Assembly: GCA_030692565.1 (NCBI GenBank)
Contig: JAUYAO010000014.1
Span: 1 to 64,000 of the forward strand
Reading direction: 5' to 3'
Length of the DNA: 64,000 nucleotides
Source: Nitrospira sp.
GTDB taxonomy: Bacteria > Nitrospirota > Nitrospiria > Nitrospirales > Nitrospiraceae
Positions 10,796-15,089 of the stretch are shown piece after piece. The position numbers and the translations under genes were made by a program. Position 1 is the stretch's first letter. Every line of letters begins with the position of its first letter. The notes under the pieces were generated by a model. It saw nothing but the letters and a program-made list of their open reading frames with translations, searched no databases and was not told the origin of the DNA.

Positions 10796-10966
10796 ATCGA
10801 ACAGTATCCTTCACGCGGACCACAAACGTTCAGCTCTCATGTTTCGGTTGATTCAGGCACAAACTTGAGGGTCTTCCCTTAGTGTTCATGGCCGTCTGTA
10901 TCCGTCTTTGAAGAGTGCTGTGCGTTTTGTTGGATTCAGGGATTTACGCGTTCCCGACAGACACGT

Positions 10967-12169
10967 ATGATGACCGACGCACATGCCTCACCAGCAGAGC
11001 TTCGTAATATCGGGAGAACGACGATGCATGGACATAGGCTGTCGGGGGACCGCTTTTCGGTCGAGTACCATCTCACGGGGACTGAGTCGCAGGGGCGGAA
11101 CATGGCCGAGCGCCTGTGCGCCGATCAGACCATAGAAGCCCCGCTGTCCCTGCTGCGCACCTGCCCAATTCCCGAAGGACTCCTGGGCCGGGTCGAGGAT
11201 TTCTCACGAGTGGAGGAAACGCGGCATCGGGCCCTGATCAGTTTTCCCGTTGAACTGTTTGGCCATTCGTTCGCGCAGATGCTGCACACCCTGTTCGGCA
11301 CGGCCAGTCTCAGCCCCCAGGTCCAAGTCGCCGACATTCATCTCCCCACCCAGCTGCCGGAAAGCTGGCCCGGCCCTCGGCACGGTATCTCAGGCATCCG
11401 TACAATGACTGACGTGGCCCATCGTCCATTGGTCTGTGCCGTCTTGAAGCCACTAGGGCTCTCTCCTGAGGCGCTGGCGGAATTGGCCCACAGCTTCGCA
11501 CTCGGCGGCGTGGACATCATCAAGGATGACCAAGGTCTTGGAGATCATGCCTTCTGCCCCTCCGAGGAACGCGTCCAGCGCTGCCTTGCCGCCATTCGTG
11601 ATGCCAGCCGCTCCACTGGCCGCAGATGCCTCTACTTTACTCACGTCGTCGGATCGCTCGAAGACATATGGACACAAACACAATTCGCCAGGCAGGCAGG
11701 CGCGGATGGAATCCTCCTCTCACCGGGGCTGGTGGGATAGCAGGCGCTTCACGATCTGAATCGTCACGCGTCTGACGCGCTGCCCATCATGTCTCATCCG
11801 GCATTCCTCGGCACCTACGCCATGGCTCCGACACAGGGGCTCGCTCCAAGCGTGCTCTACGGTCGTCTTCCCCGACTCGCCGGCGCAGACATCACCATCT
11901 ATCCAACCTACGGCCTCAATTGTCCGATCAGCCGCCGAGACTGCACGCAAATTGCGGCCGCCTGCACAGAGTCCTGGGGACCACTGCGGCCCATCTTCCC
12001 CACCGCCGCGGGTCGCATGGGAGAAGACCGCATCAGAGAGATGTGCGAGGTCTACGGCCGTGACTGTGTCTTCATTCTGGGAAGCCAGATACGGGAATCA
12101 CCGGAAAGCATCGCTGCATCCTGCGAGCATTTCATGCAACGTCTCGATAAACTTTCCGCTGCTCATTGA
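10967..12169 (+). pseudogene. RuBisCO-like protein (form IV type) interrupted by an in-frame TAG
   Basis: Codons before and after the TAG at 11738-11740 are in the same frame and together give a RuBisCO large-subunit-like protein of about 400 residues. The first part has the N-terminal domain (RFSVEYHLTG) and barrel motifs AVLKPLGLS (Lys161), GGVDIIKDDQG (Lys186, Asp187, Asp188, Gln189) and THVVGS. After LLSPGLVG the TAG is followed directly by QALHDL, SHPAFLGTYA and GRDCVFILGSQI. The Glu of the canonical KDDE metal site is Gln, as expected of a non-carboxylating relative. TGG to TAG is the simplest origin. It could be a dead gene, a sequencing error or an amber read-through gene. An alternative start is the ATG at 11024. 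Confidence 0.8.
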
Positions 12170-12221: not shown

Positions 12222-12233
12222 TCTGCTACACTT
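12222..12233 (+). promoter_or_regulatory. Extended -10 promoter for the riboswitch transcript
   Basis: TCTGCTACACTT contains an extended -10 (TGC then TACACT at 12227-12232). It lies about 50 bases upstream of the riboswitch. The same 12 bases occur at 40956-40967 before the ClpS-like gene. No good -35 is visible, which is tolerable for an extended -10 promoter. Confidence 0.45.
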
Positions 12234-12279
12234 AAACCAGTTGAAACAGAGGCCAGGTTGATCAATCCCGATCAATGCC

Positions 12280-12372
12280 GGCCACGTGACAAGGGCAAAC
12301 CACTCGAGAGGGTGGGACGCAAAGCCAAGGGACCTAACGAGGGACGTATGTTCCAGGGTCAGCCTAGCCGCC
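12280..12372 (+). promoter_or_regulatory. Cyclic di-GMP-I riboswitch (GEMM motif)
   Basis: The stretch carries the conserved core of the GEMM-I aptamer in order: CACG at 12283-12286, AGGGCAAACC at 12292-12301, GGTGGGACGCAAAGCC at 12311-12326, then GGGACCTAACG, an inner hairpin GGGAC/GTTCC (12341-12355) and the GGTC...GCC 3' strand. This class binds c-di-GMP. The aptamer is followed after about 110 bases by the flagellar-rod-like gene at 12482. No U-rich terminator is obvious in between. A CCGAG/CTCGG hairpin (12443-12460) lies near the ribosome binding site GGGAGGTG, so control of translation is possible. Confidence 0.88.
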
Positions 12373-12481
12373 ACAACGCAGTCCTCTTCCAGCGCCACTG
12401 GCGTGCCAGCTCTCTCCCGGAACAGTATTCCCTCCGCAGGCACCGAGGCGGTTATCTCGGAACGGGACTGGGAGGTGCTTT

Positions 12482-12835
12482 ATGATGTCCGCAATCGACA
12501 CAGCCTTATCGGGCCTGACGAATTTCGCCAAGAAGCTCGATGTCTCCGCCCATAACGTGGCGAATGTGAATACCGACGGATTCCATAAATCAAGGGTTGA
12601 GTCCGTCGAGGTCGGAACCGGCGGCGTGTTGCCGGTCGTCCAAAAGGACGATTCCGCCGGACCGAGCGTGCTGAAAGACCGCGGATACGGTGCGGCCCAG
12701 GTCGAATTGTCCAATGTCGATCTCGGAGAAGAAGCCGTCAGCCAGATCGTCGCCCAGCGCGGATTCGAAGCCAATCTCCGCACGCTGAAAACCGCCGACG
12801 ATATGCTGGGGAGCATTATCGACACGAAGCGGTAA
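12482..12835 (+). CDS. Short flagellar basal-body rod/hook-like protein (FlgC-like)
   Basis: The 117-residue protein has the two terminal signatures of flagellar axial rod proteins. Residues 3-36 are Flg_bb_rod (ALSGLTNFAKKLDVSAHNVA), with the motif around NVNTDGFHKS. Residues 75-117 are the C-terminal Flg_bbr_C helix (NVDLGEEAVSQIVAQRGFEA). The central part is short, so the protein is shorter than typical FlgC. It would assemble into a helical rod through paired terminal helices. No other flagellar gene lies nearby, so it is an orphan. It is preceded by GGGAGGTG and a c-di-GMP riboswitch, which fits motility or export control by c-di-GMP. Start may be either of two consecutive ATGs (12482 or 12485). 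Confidence 0.8.
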   Translation: MMSAIDTALSGLTNFAKKLDVSAHNVANVNTDGFHKSRVESVEVGTGGVLPVVQKDDSAGPSVLKDRGYGAAQVELSNVDLGEEAVSQIVAQRGFEANLRTLKTADDMLGSIIDTKR

Positions 12836-12870: not shown

Positions 12871-12906
12871 CGACATAGCATTCCCGCCTGACAGTATGCT
12901 ATGTCG
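12871..12906. promoter_or_regulatory. 11-bp perfect inverted repeat at the start of the radical SAM gene
   Basis: CGACATAGCAT (12871-12881) and ATGCTATGTCG (12896-12906) are perfect inverses separated by 14 bases, ending 5 bases before the ATG at 12912. The right arm touches the GAGG ribosome binding site. It can be a protein operator or an mRNA hairpin controlling translation. No T-run follows, so a terminator for the upstream gene is less likely. Confidence 0.6.
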
Positions 12907-12911
12907 AGGTC

Positions 12912-15089
12912 ATGACCGCGCCCCGAGTCCTGTTACTGATTCCCCCGCTGACCCAGCTCAATACCCCGTACCCGTCCACCGCCTATCTCTCCGGATTCTT
13001 GCAGTCTCAGGGAATCGCTTCTGAACAGGCCGATCTTGGGATCGAGATGGTCTTGCGGCTGTTCAGTCCCGATGGACTTCGGGAGGTCTTTCGTCTTGTG
13101 CGGCAACAATCAGACGATCTTCCCCCACAGGCCCTCGCCATGCTCGCGGACGAAGACGCTTACCTGAGTACGATCGACACAGTGGTGACGTTCCTGCAGG
13201 GCAAGACTCCAGGGGCAGCCAGTCTGCTCGTTCATCCTGGATTTCTTCCGCAAGGTCCGCGGTTCGACGGCAAGACGAGATTTCAGAAATCTGTTCCGAT
13301 TGAAGATCGAGCGAAGCACTGGGGCACGCTGTATCTCGAAGACCTCGCCGACCTGGTCCAAGCCACGGTCAGCCCATCCTTCGCCCTCAGCCGCTACGCC
13401 GAACATCTGGCTCACTCCGCATCCTCATTCGACCGATTAGCCTCGGCTCTCGCCGAGCCGCTCAGCCTGACGGATGAATTCCTGCTGGATGCCCTGTGGC
13501 CACACCTCGACCGTGTGGATCCGACCCTCGTGGGTCTGTCAGTCCCCTTTCCCGGCAATCTCTATGGCGCATTTCGGATTGCCCAGGCGATGAAGCAGCG
13601 GAGGCCGAATCTCCCGATTGTGCTCGGCGGCGGCTATGCGAATACGGAGTTGCGTCGTGTCCGCGATCCTCGAGTGTTCGACTACGTGGACTTCATCACC
13701 TTGGACGACGGGGAGCGACCGCTTCTCTCGCTCCTCGAACATCTCACGGGCCAACGCCCGAAAACCGGGCTCTGCCGAACGTTTTACAGAGACGAGCATC
13801 GCGTCCGCTTCGCCGACGATCGGTCCGTATCTAATTACAGCATGAATGACGTCGGATGTCCGACCTATCGAGGATTGCCGCTGGATCGCTACCTGACAAT
13901 CCTCGACAGCACGAATCCCATGCATCGCCTCTGGTCCGAAGGTCATTGGAACAAACTGACCGTCGCGCACGGCTGTTATTGGAAGCAGTGCACGTTTTGC
14001 GATGTCGGGCTCGACTACATCAGCCGGTATGAAATGACGCCGACTGAACGGCTGATCCAACAAATCGAGCACCTGATCGCCGAAACCGGGCAACGCGGAT
14101 TCCACTTTGTGGATGAAGCCGCCCCGCCTGCGGCGCTGAAGGCGCTGGCACTGGGATTACTGGAACGGAAGCTCGCGATCACCTGGTGGGGAAACATCCG
14201 GTTCGAAGAGGCTTTTTCACCGGATCTATGCAAACTCTTAGCCGCCTCCGGCTGTATCGCCGTGACCGCAGGACTGGAAGCGGCCTCGGATCGTCTGCTC
14301 GACAAGATGAAAAAAGGGATTACCGTCGATCAGACCGCACTCGTCGCGGCCGCCTTCAAAGAGGCCGGCATTATGATTCATGCGTATCTCATGTACGGAT
14401 TCCCCTCGGAAACGATCCAAGAGGCAGTGGATGCTCTCGAACGCGTGCGGCAACTCTTCAAAGCAGACCTGATGCAATCGGCCTTCTGGCACCGCTTTAC
14501 CACGACGGCCCACAGCCCGGTCGGCCTCAATCCCAAAGCCAACGGACTGCGCATCCTTGGACCGACATTTGAAGGTTTTGCTGACAACGATCTGATTCAC
14601 CGCGACCCTGTCGGGAAAACCCCAGCCTGGCTGGGCGAAGGCTTACGTCGCTCCATGCTGAACTTTCTGGAGGGGCGAGGGCTCACGATGGATGTTCGTC
14701 AGTGGTTCGACCATGACGTGCCTGAGCCGCACGTCCCCAAGACCTGGGTACGGAGCCTTCTCCGCAAACGACTAGGGGCCGATCAGCTACCACTTGAACG
14801 CCGGCTGGTATGGCTCGGCGCTCAGCCAATCGCAGTAGCACAAACCAGACGGGTGAAACTGACACTGCAGGGACAATTTGCCAAGGCGGTCATCCAGCTC
14901 CCTCACTCACAGGGGCAGTGGCTTCACACCGTCATCAAGCAAGCGACCCCGCGCAAAAATAAAGCAACACCTTATCCATGGGTTCGAGACATACAAGCCA
15001 GCTTTCCAGGTACAGCGAACGATTTCGTCACGTTTTTAGAAAGTCCCGGCTGGAGAAACGCCCGTACCGCTGGTCTGTTATTGGTCTAG
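12912..15089 (+). CDS. B12-binding domain radical SAM protein
   Basis: The 725-residue protein combines an N-terminal cobalamin-binding-like Rossmann domain (about 1-280, VLLLIPPLTQLNTPYPSTAYLSG and later PIVLGGGYANTELRR) with a radical SAM barrel beginning near residue 345. The iron-sulfur cysteines are Cys355, Cys360 and Cys363 in HGCYWKQCTFCD. This is the CX4CX2C spacing seen in B12-radical SAM relatives rather than the usual CX3CX2C. GLEAASDRLLDKMKKG and MYGFPSET are typical of the barrel. Residues 580-725 form an uncharacterised C-terminal region. It probably performs a methylation or rearrangement on an unknown substrate. It follows the flagellar-like gene by 76 bases and has its own inverted repeat at the start. 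Confidence 0.85.
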   Translation: MTAPRVLLLIPPLTQLNTPYPSTAYLSGFLQSQGIASEQADLGIEMVLRLFSPDGLREVFRLVRQQSDDLPPQALAMLADEDAYLSTIDTVVTFLQGKTPGAASLLVHPGFLPQGPRFDGKTRFQKSVPIEDRAKHWGTLYLEDLADLVQATVSPSFALSRYAEHLAHSASSFDRLASALAEPLSLTDEFLLDALWPHLDRVDPTLVGLSVPFPGNLYGAFRIAQAMKQRRPNLPIVLGGGYANTELRRVRDPRVFDYVDFITLDDGERPLLSLLEHLTGQRPKTGLCRTFYRDEHRVRFADDRSVSNYSMNDVGCPTYRGLPLDRYLTILDSTNPMHRLWSEGHWNKLTVAHGCYWKQCTFCDVGLDYISRYEMTPTERLIQQIEHLIAETGQRGFHFVDEAAPPAALKALALGLLERKLAITWWGNIRFEEAFSPDLCKLLAASGCIAVTAGLEAASDRLLDKMKKGITVDQTALVAAAFKEAGIMIHAYLMYGFPSETIQEAVDALERVRQLFKADLMQSAFWHRFTTTAHSPVGLNPKANGLRILGPTFEGFADNDLIHRDPVGKTPAWLGEGLRRSMLNFLEGRGLTMDVRQWFDHDVPEPHVPKTWVRSLLRKRLGADQLPLERRLVWLGAQPIAVAQTRRVKLTLQGQFAKAVIQLPHSQGQWLHTVIKQATPRKNKATPYPWVRDIQASFPGTANDFVTFLESPGWRNARTAGLLLV

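Follow-up and report, generated by a model that had tools for sequence, protein, structure and literature searches.

We propose that a class I c-di-GMP riboswitch in the 64,000-nucleotide stretch of Nitrospira DNA analysed here (the window) controls a solitary axial protein of the flagellar programme that has no D1 domain and is not a standard rod protein; we call it the mini-rod. As the best overall explanation, we consider it likely that an accessory axial protein of the late flagellar regulon has been put under c-di-GMP control. In most riboswitch-free Nitrospira, and in some other phyla, the mini-rod gene would be read from a sigma-28 (FliA) promoter along with genes of the late flagellar class. 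The window's lineage would have lost that promoter; there an extended -10 promoter would make the mRNA, and the riboswitch would set mini-rod output according to c-di-GMP. It also seems reasonably probable that the flagellar apparatus exports the protein, which then becomes part of the axial structure or controls the assembly of that structure. The features of the locus are as follows.

12224-12232, + strand: extended -10 promoter element TGCTACACT; most relatives that carry the riboswitch, and the N. moscoviensis group, which lacks it, have this element at a constant position.
12285-12376, + strand: c-di-GMP class I (GEMM-I) riboswitch aptamer, over gathering for RF03167 and RF01051 and with compensatory changes in P2.
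12377-12470, + strand: expression-platform region, from the aptamer to the Shine-Dalgarno site, where a terminator scan was at chance level.
12471-12477, + strand: Shine-Dalgarno sequence GGAGGTG, conserved in nearly all Nitrospira relatives.
12482-12835, + strand: gene for the mini-rod, a 117-aa solitary axial (rod-type) protein with D0 and Dc domains only, over the cut-offs of PF00460 and PF06429.
12912-15089, + strand: B12-binding-type radical SAM gene (Pfam Radical_SAM), the same-strand neighbour of the mini-rod gene.

Searching the window against Rfam with cmscan returned a single riboswitch, at 12285-12376 on the + strand, which scored 64.2 bits against RF03167 (c-di-GMP-I-GGC; gathering threshold 59, E 7e-13) and 58.4 bits against RF01051 (gathering threshold 35). 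The GEMM-I aptamer recognized by the first-pass annotation of this DNA was therefore confirmed, and no second RF01051 match was found in the rest of the window's genome. Among relatives, pairs of the P2 stem changed from C-G to U-A and from A-U to G-C with pairing intact, as expected of compensatory changes, and the aptamer core was invariant across the aligned relatives (rows L009 and L203 were left out of the wider aptamer alignment, which was used for core residues only). The folding energy of the aptamer alone was ordinary (z -0.1), so that its identification rests on the covariance models.

Because RF03167 was the best-scoring model of its clan, we weighed the alternative that the aptamer is a true GGC variant sensing a ligand other than c-di-GMP. 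The RF03167 consensus GACGCGAAG has a G at the position equivalent to A47, which we take to define the GGC variant on the basis of that consensus and the name of the model. Although the RF03167 score was over gathering, the window aptamer lacks this G: the window and all aligned relatives have A there (GACGCAAAG / GGCGCAAAG), and the A47 of the binding pocket lies within GACGCAAAGCC in the window and its relatives. The positions that we equate with G20 and C92, in an alignment made by eye to Vc2 numbering, are likewise G and C. A47 stacks between the two guanines, and A47, G20 and C92 are important for c-di-GMP-I aptamers (PMC9049102), which argues against the GGC variant in the window and in every aligned relative and leaves it very unlikely. 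To judge from these residues, the aptamer looks like an ordinary c-di-GMP-I aptamer, as which we have filed it despite the best-scoring model, and its ligand is very probably c-di-GMP.

The protein encoded downstream matched Pfam Flg_bb_rod at residues 5-34 (35.6 bits) and Flg_bbr_C at residues 74-114 (50.4 bits), both over cut-off, and at 117 residues it has no room for a D1 domain. An AlphaFold2 model (53 relatives; pLDDT 86.6) predicted helices at residues 2-27 and 81-116 with four strands between them; among solved structures FlgC matched it best (Z 13.7 over 115 residues), followed at Z of about 13 by FlgG, FlgE and FlgF in their D0-Dc parts. As modelled, the mini-rod is a D1-less axial protein that combines a D0 coiled coil with a Dc beta fold. 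FlgC of the proximal rod (7cg0, 7bin, 8z5s) likewise consists of D0 and Dc only and is similar in length and fold, but it has 134-149 residues, its identity to the mini-rod is low, and the mini-rod scored 35.5 bits against TIGR01395 (FlgC), under the equivalog cut-off of 102.1. By sequence FlgG and FlgE are nearer to the mini-rod than FlgC is, as seen in a PDB profile search, in which FlgG was the best hit, and again in comparison with the genome's own paralogues. FlgG, FlgE and FlgF are its closest relatives in D0 and Dc, but their D1 is missing from it entirely; it scored 57.4 bits against TIGR03506 (FlgEFG; cut-off 70.25), and all curated FlgEFG cut-offs were missed. The earlier description of a FlgC-like protein of 117 residues was thus right in size and fold but not in sequence affinity.

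The window belongs to a 100% complete Nitrospira genome (4.17 Mb, 60 contigs), which carries a flagellar cluster on contig 26 that encodes FlgB, FlgC (149 aa), FliE, FliF, FliI, FliP, FliR, FlhB and FlhA, together with FlgE, FlgF, FlgG, FlgH, FlgI, FlgK, FlgL, FlhF, FliA and a GGDEF protein. The FlgC of this cluster scored 172 bits against TIGR01395. Since a full flagellar cluster with its own FlgC is present elsewhere, the mini-rod is an extra axial paralogue. The first-pass annotation had seen no other flagellar genes near the mini-rod, which holds for the neighbourhood (the window's contig has no other Flg_bb_rod gene) but not for the genome. It had also reasoned that a full regulon elsewhere would make this an ordinary flgC copy; the full set was found, but we rejected an ordinary flgC copy, given 35.5 bits where about 102 are needed and the genome's own FlgC. 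Its description of the gene as an orphan was strongly upheld: the gene was solitary in each locus read, never adjoining flagellar genes, and stood alone in every lineage looked at.

A full aptamer, by either model, was present in 25 of the 79 genomes of the genus, and in 25 of 25 cases it lay just before the mini-rod gene, which had a good Shine-Dalgarno site; two more aptamer matches in the genus were fragmentary and lay at the ends of contigs. Across the family, 39 of 175 genomes had RF01051 matches. Seven genomes of the neighbouring genus g4 had the aptamer before a mini-rod gene, and G449 (locus L082), of g4, has a riboswitch copy. In other Nitrospiraceae genera c-di-GMP-I aptamers precede other genes, mostly for exported proteins. 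The 25 of 25 pairing, together with these other targets in other genera, indicates that the pairing of aptamer and mini-rod is conserved and specific within Nitrospira. With cmscan, no riboswitch was found at mini-rod loci of the outgroups (Desulfobulbales, Nitrospinota and other Nitrospirota). As a separate observation, the aptamers at loci L201, L208, L209 and L211 of other Nitrospiraceae genera precede genes for large exported, repeat-rich proteins.

Profile searches found the mini-rod in 81 of 396 Nitrospirota genomes, and relatives with 35-47% identity occurred in Desulfobulbales, other deltaproteobacteria and Nitrospinota. Azospirillum megaplasmids (H1-H5) encode proteins of about 133 aa that are 31-36% identical to the mini-rod, some of them annotated only as rod C-terminal domain protein. 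Within the genus, the mini-rod gene was absent from 15 of 79 genomes by profile search, and this patchy loss, along with that of the riboswitch, would suit a non-essential relic of an ancestral duplication of flgG/flgE type with the riboswitch as a passive hitch-hiker. We regard this reading as highly improbable. The mini-rod is under strong purifying selection, with omega of 0.02-0.03 in the window's clade and mostly about 0.02-0.1 across comparisons; 64 of the 79 genomes keep it as a single full-length copy; and the invariant aptamer core and compensatory P2 changes likewise speak against a relic.

The promoter regions of relatives connect the mini-rod with the flagellar regulon. Candidate sigma-28 sites were scored to a maximum of 14, a scale on which 0.13% of shuffles reach 12. 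Riboswitch-free Nitrospira had a sigma-28 site at a fixed distance before the mini-rod gene, usually at -69 or -108 (for example TAAAGTTC-N11-TCCGATAA), in 32 of 39 loci; 30 of these sites scored at least 12 and two scored 11 at the same place. Similar sites preceded the mini-rod gene in Nitrospinota and in two deltaproteobacteria (single loci). No promoter of the TAAAGTTC-N11-NCCGATAA type was found before the mini-rod gene of the window, where the best score, 9 of 14, was at chance. FliA is encoded in the window's genome, where flgM has a matching sigma-28 site before it. Most riboswitch copies of group 2 had the sequence TCAAGT..-N11-.CCGATAC immediately upstream of the aptamer and below the extended -10; it scored 10-11, which about 3% of shuffles reach in each case, at a conserved position. 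This is probably a sigma-28 site, which would place both controls in one group. In the N. moscoviensis group the extended -10 is present, but neither a sigma-28 site nor the riboswitch.

Riboswitch copies occurred in several clades of the protein tree, which has few alignment columns and on which five changes are needed. A single origin of the riboswitch could be compatible with such a tree, and an old riboswitch with repeated loss and repeated exchange of promoter regions both fit. Judging from the promoter regions, evolution appears to have swapped the control of this additional flagellar part between sigma-28 and the riboswitch.

The distribution of the mini-rod among flagellated genomes bears on its role. 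Across the 396 Nitrospirota, 76 genomes had both the mini-rod and FlhA, 5 the mini-rod only, 159 FlhA only and 156 neither; within the genus (n = 79) the counts were 61, 3, 9 and 6, respectively. The association was significant in both sets (Fisher p 1.6e-14 and 0.001, respectively, without correction for relatedness). Nine flagellated Nitrospira had no mini-rod gene. Genome G030 is 99% complete and has neither FlhA nor another rod gene, and its mini-rod copy has lost its start codon and reading frame. A GGDEF gene inside the flagellar cluster and an HD-GYP gene beside the riboswitch also fit our overall explanation. The sigma-28 sites of relatives, the co-occurrence with FlhA and the decayed copy in G030 point to a role linked to the flagellum.

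These same three lines of evidence bear against reuse of the mini-rod outside the flagellum, an idea raised in the first-pass annotation. Under such reuse the mini-rod could, for example, be an exported or cytoplasmic protein of the sessile state, and the riboswitch would be ON at high c-di-GMP. A few apparently flagellum-less genomes do favour it: intact copies occur without FlhA in G029, G147, G176 (99% complete) and G011 (87%), and one FlhA-less genome with an intact mini-rod keeps the riboswitch at 99% completeness. The absence of the gene from flagellar clusters in all loci read, and the riboswitches of the same class before exported proteins in other Nitrospiraceae genera, also fit reuse. 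However, flagellar clusters missing from metagenome-assembled genomes can be binning losses, and unbinned clusters could explain the FlhA-less genomes with intact copies. Comparison of G011 with a flagellated relative gave omega of 0.018, with no relaxed selection, as expected if its flagellum were merely unbinned. We therefore judge reuse unlikely and retain the accessory flagellar protein as our reading. More speculatively, the mini-rod might be an undescribed c-di-GMP-gated subunit that regulates flagellum assembly or release (such as a cap, plug or junction adaptor that is made late), or an extra-flagellar rod protein, with its control switched from FliA to the riboswitch within one genus; we put this forward only tentatively, as a minority possibility.

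In the leader of the window, the extended -10 promoter that had been attributed to the riboswitch stood up to comparison, since most relatives with the riboswitch have the element TGCTACACT (12224-12232 in the window) in the corresponding position. A plain sigma-70 scan of the leader found no two-box promoter, and no good -35 box lies beside TGCTACACT. From the extended -10, transcription would start near 12238. Between the aptamer and the gene, the terminator scan found one terminator-like site where 0.9 are expected by chance, without a good T run, and we rejected a transcription terminator in this leader. Relatives of group 2 share a conserved helix, CGGYRCCUUCC with GGAGGUGCCG, that covers the Shine-Dalgarno site with all cells paired (mean z -2.1 relative to shuffles), whereas in the clade of the window itself (mean z -0.4) a helix sequestering this site was not above chance, and we do not claim such a hairpin for the window leader. 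As no terminator was detectable, translational control is the more likely mode, and we favour, with some reserve, a riboswitch that acts mainly at translation. Because relatives express the mini-rod with late flagellar genes, high c-di-GMP would be expected to turn the gene down; lowered mini-rod expression at high c-di-GMP, as fits a motility gene, is the direction that we think somewhat probable.

Flagellar genes under class I c-di-GMP switches have been described before. In Clostridioides difficile, Cd1 (Cdi-1-3) of the flgB operon is a class I OFF switch that terminates transcription of an early flagellar operon of 23 kb, and Vc1 and Vc2 of Vibrio cholerae do not act by transcription termination (PMC6366702). 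Like Cd1, the window riboswitch is of class I and precedes a flagellar gene; unlike it, it serves one solitary axial gene, has no terminator that we could find, and sits at a gene that in relatives has a sigma-28 promoter. Vc1 and Vc2 share its aptamer class and the apparent lack of transcription termination but have other target genes, with no flagellar axial protein among them. What is new here is the target, a solitary axial protein without a name, together with the evidence that sigma-28 and riboswitch control were exchanged within a genus; in the openly licensed literature we found no publication on the orphan mini-rod or on this exchange.

Genomes of the genus have no class I switch but this one (25 of 79 genomes, with no other target among full-length matches), and it guards one solitary axial protein. 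For this one gene, Nitrospira offers a natural series of sigma-28 only, probably sigma-28 with riboswitch, extended -10 with riboswitch, and extended -10 only, which suits study of a gene's move from the flagellar hierarchy to second-messenger control. In water treatment, the principal nitrite oxidisers and comammox bacteria are Nitrospira, and aggregate formation as against swimming matters there in practice.

The radical SAM gene starts 76 nt past the mini-rod gene in the window and follows it in most Nitrospira relatives, usually after a gap of 54-172 nt; from this arrangement the two may be co-transcribed. The gap in the window contains a perfect 11-bp inverted repeat, CGACATAGCAT ... ATGCTATGTCG at 12871-12906, without a T run. 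Upstream of the riboswitch lie a broken RuBisCO-like gene and then divergent HD-GYP and histidine-kinase genes. The RuBisCO-like gene (DK-MTP-1-P-enolase-type; 10967-12169, + strand) has an in-frame TAG at codon 258 that is absent in the close relative G068, and as it is stopped early or present as remnants in other members of the clade, it is decaying. A weak sigma-28-like site, TCAAGTTT ... ACCGAAAC (10796-10870, - strand; 11 of 14), lies upstream of the divergent HD-GYP gene, and relatives also have CCGATAG sites in that orientation. Elsewhere in the window's genome, a PilZ-domain gene has a sigma-28-like site directly before it (L198, G000:C29:62119), a possible further link between FliA and c-di-GMP. 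Finally, locus L037 (14056-15105, - strand) encodes a fusion of an N-terminal response-regulator receiver domain with a FliH-like flagellar protein.
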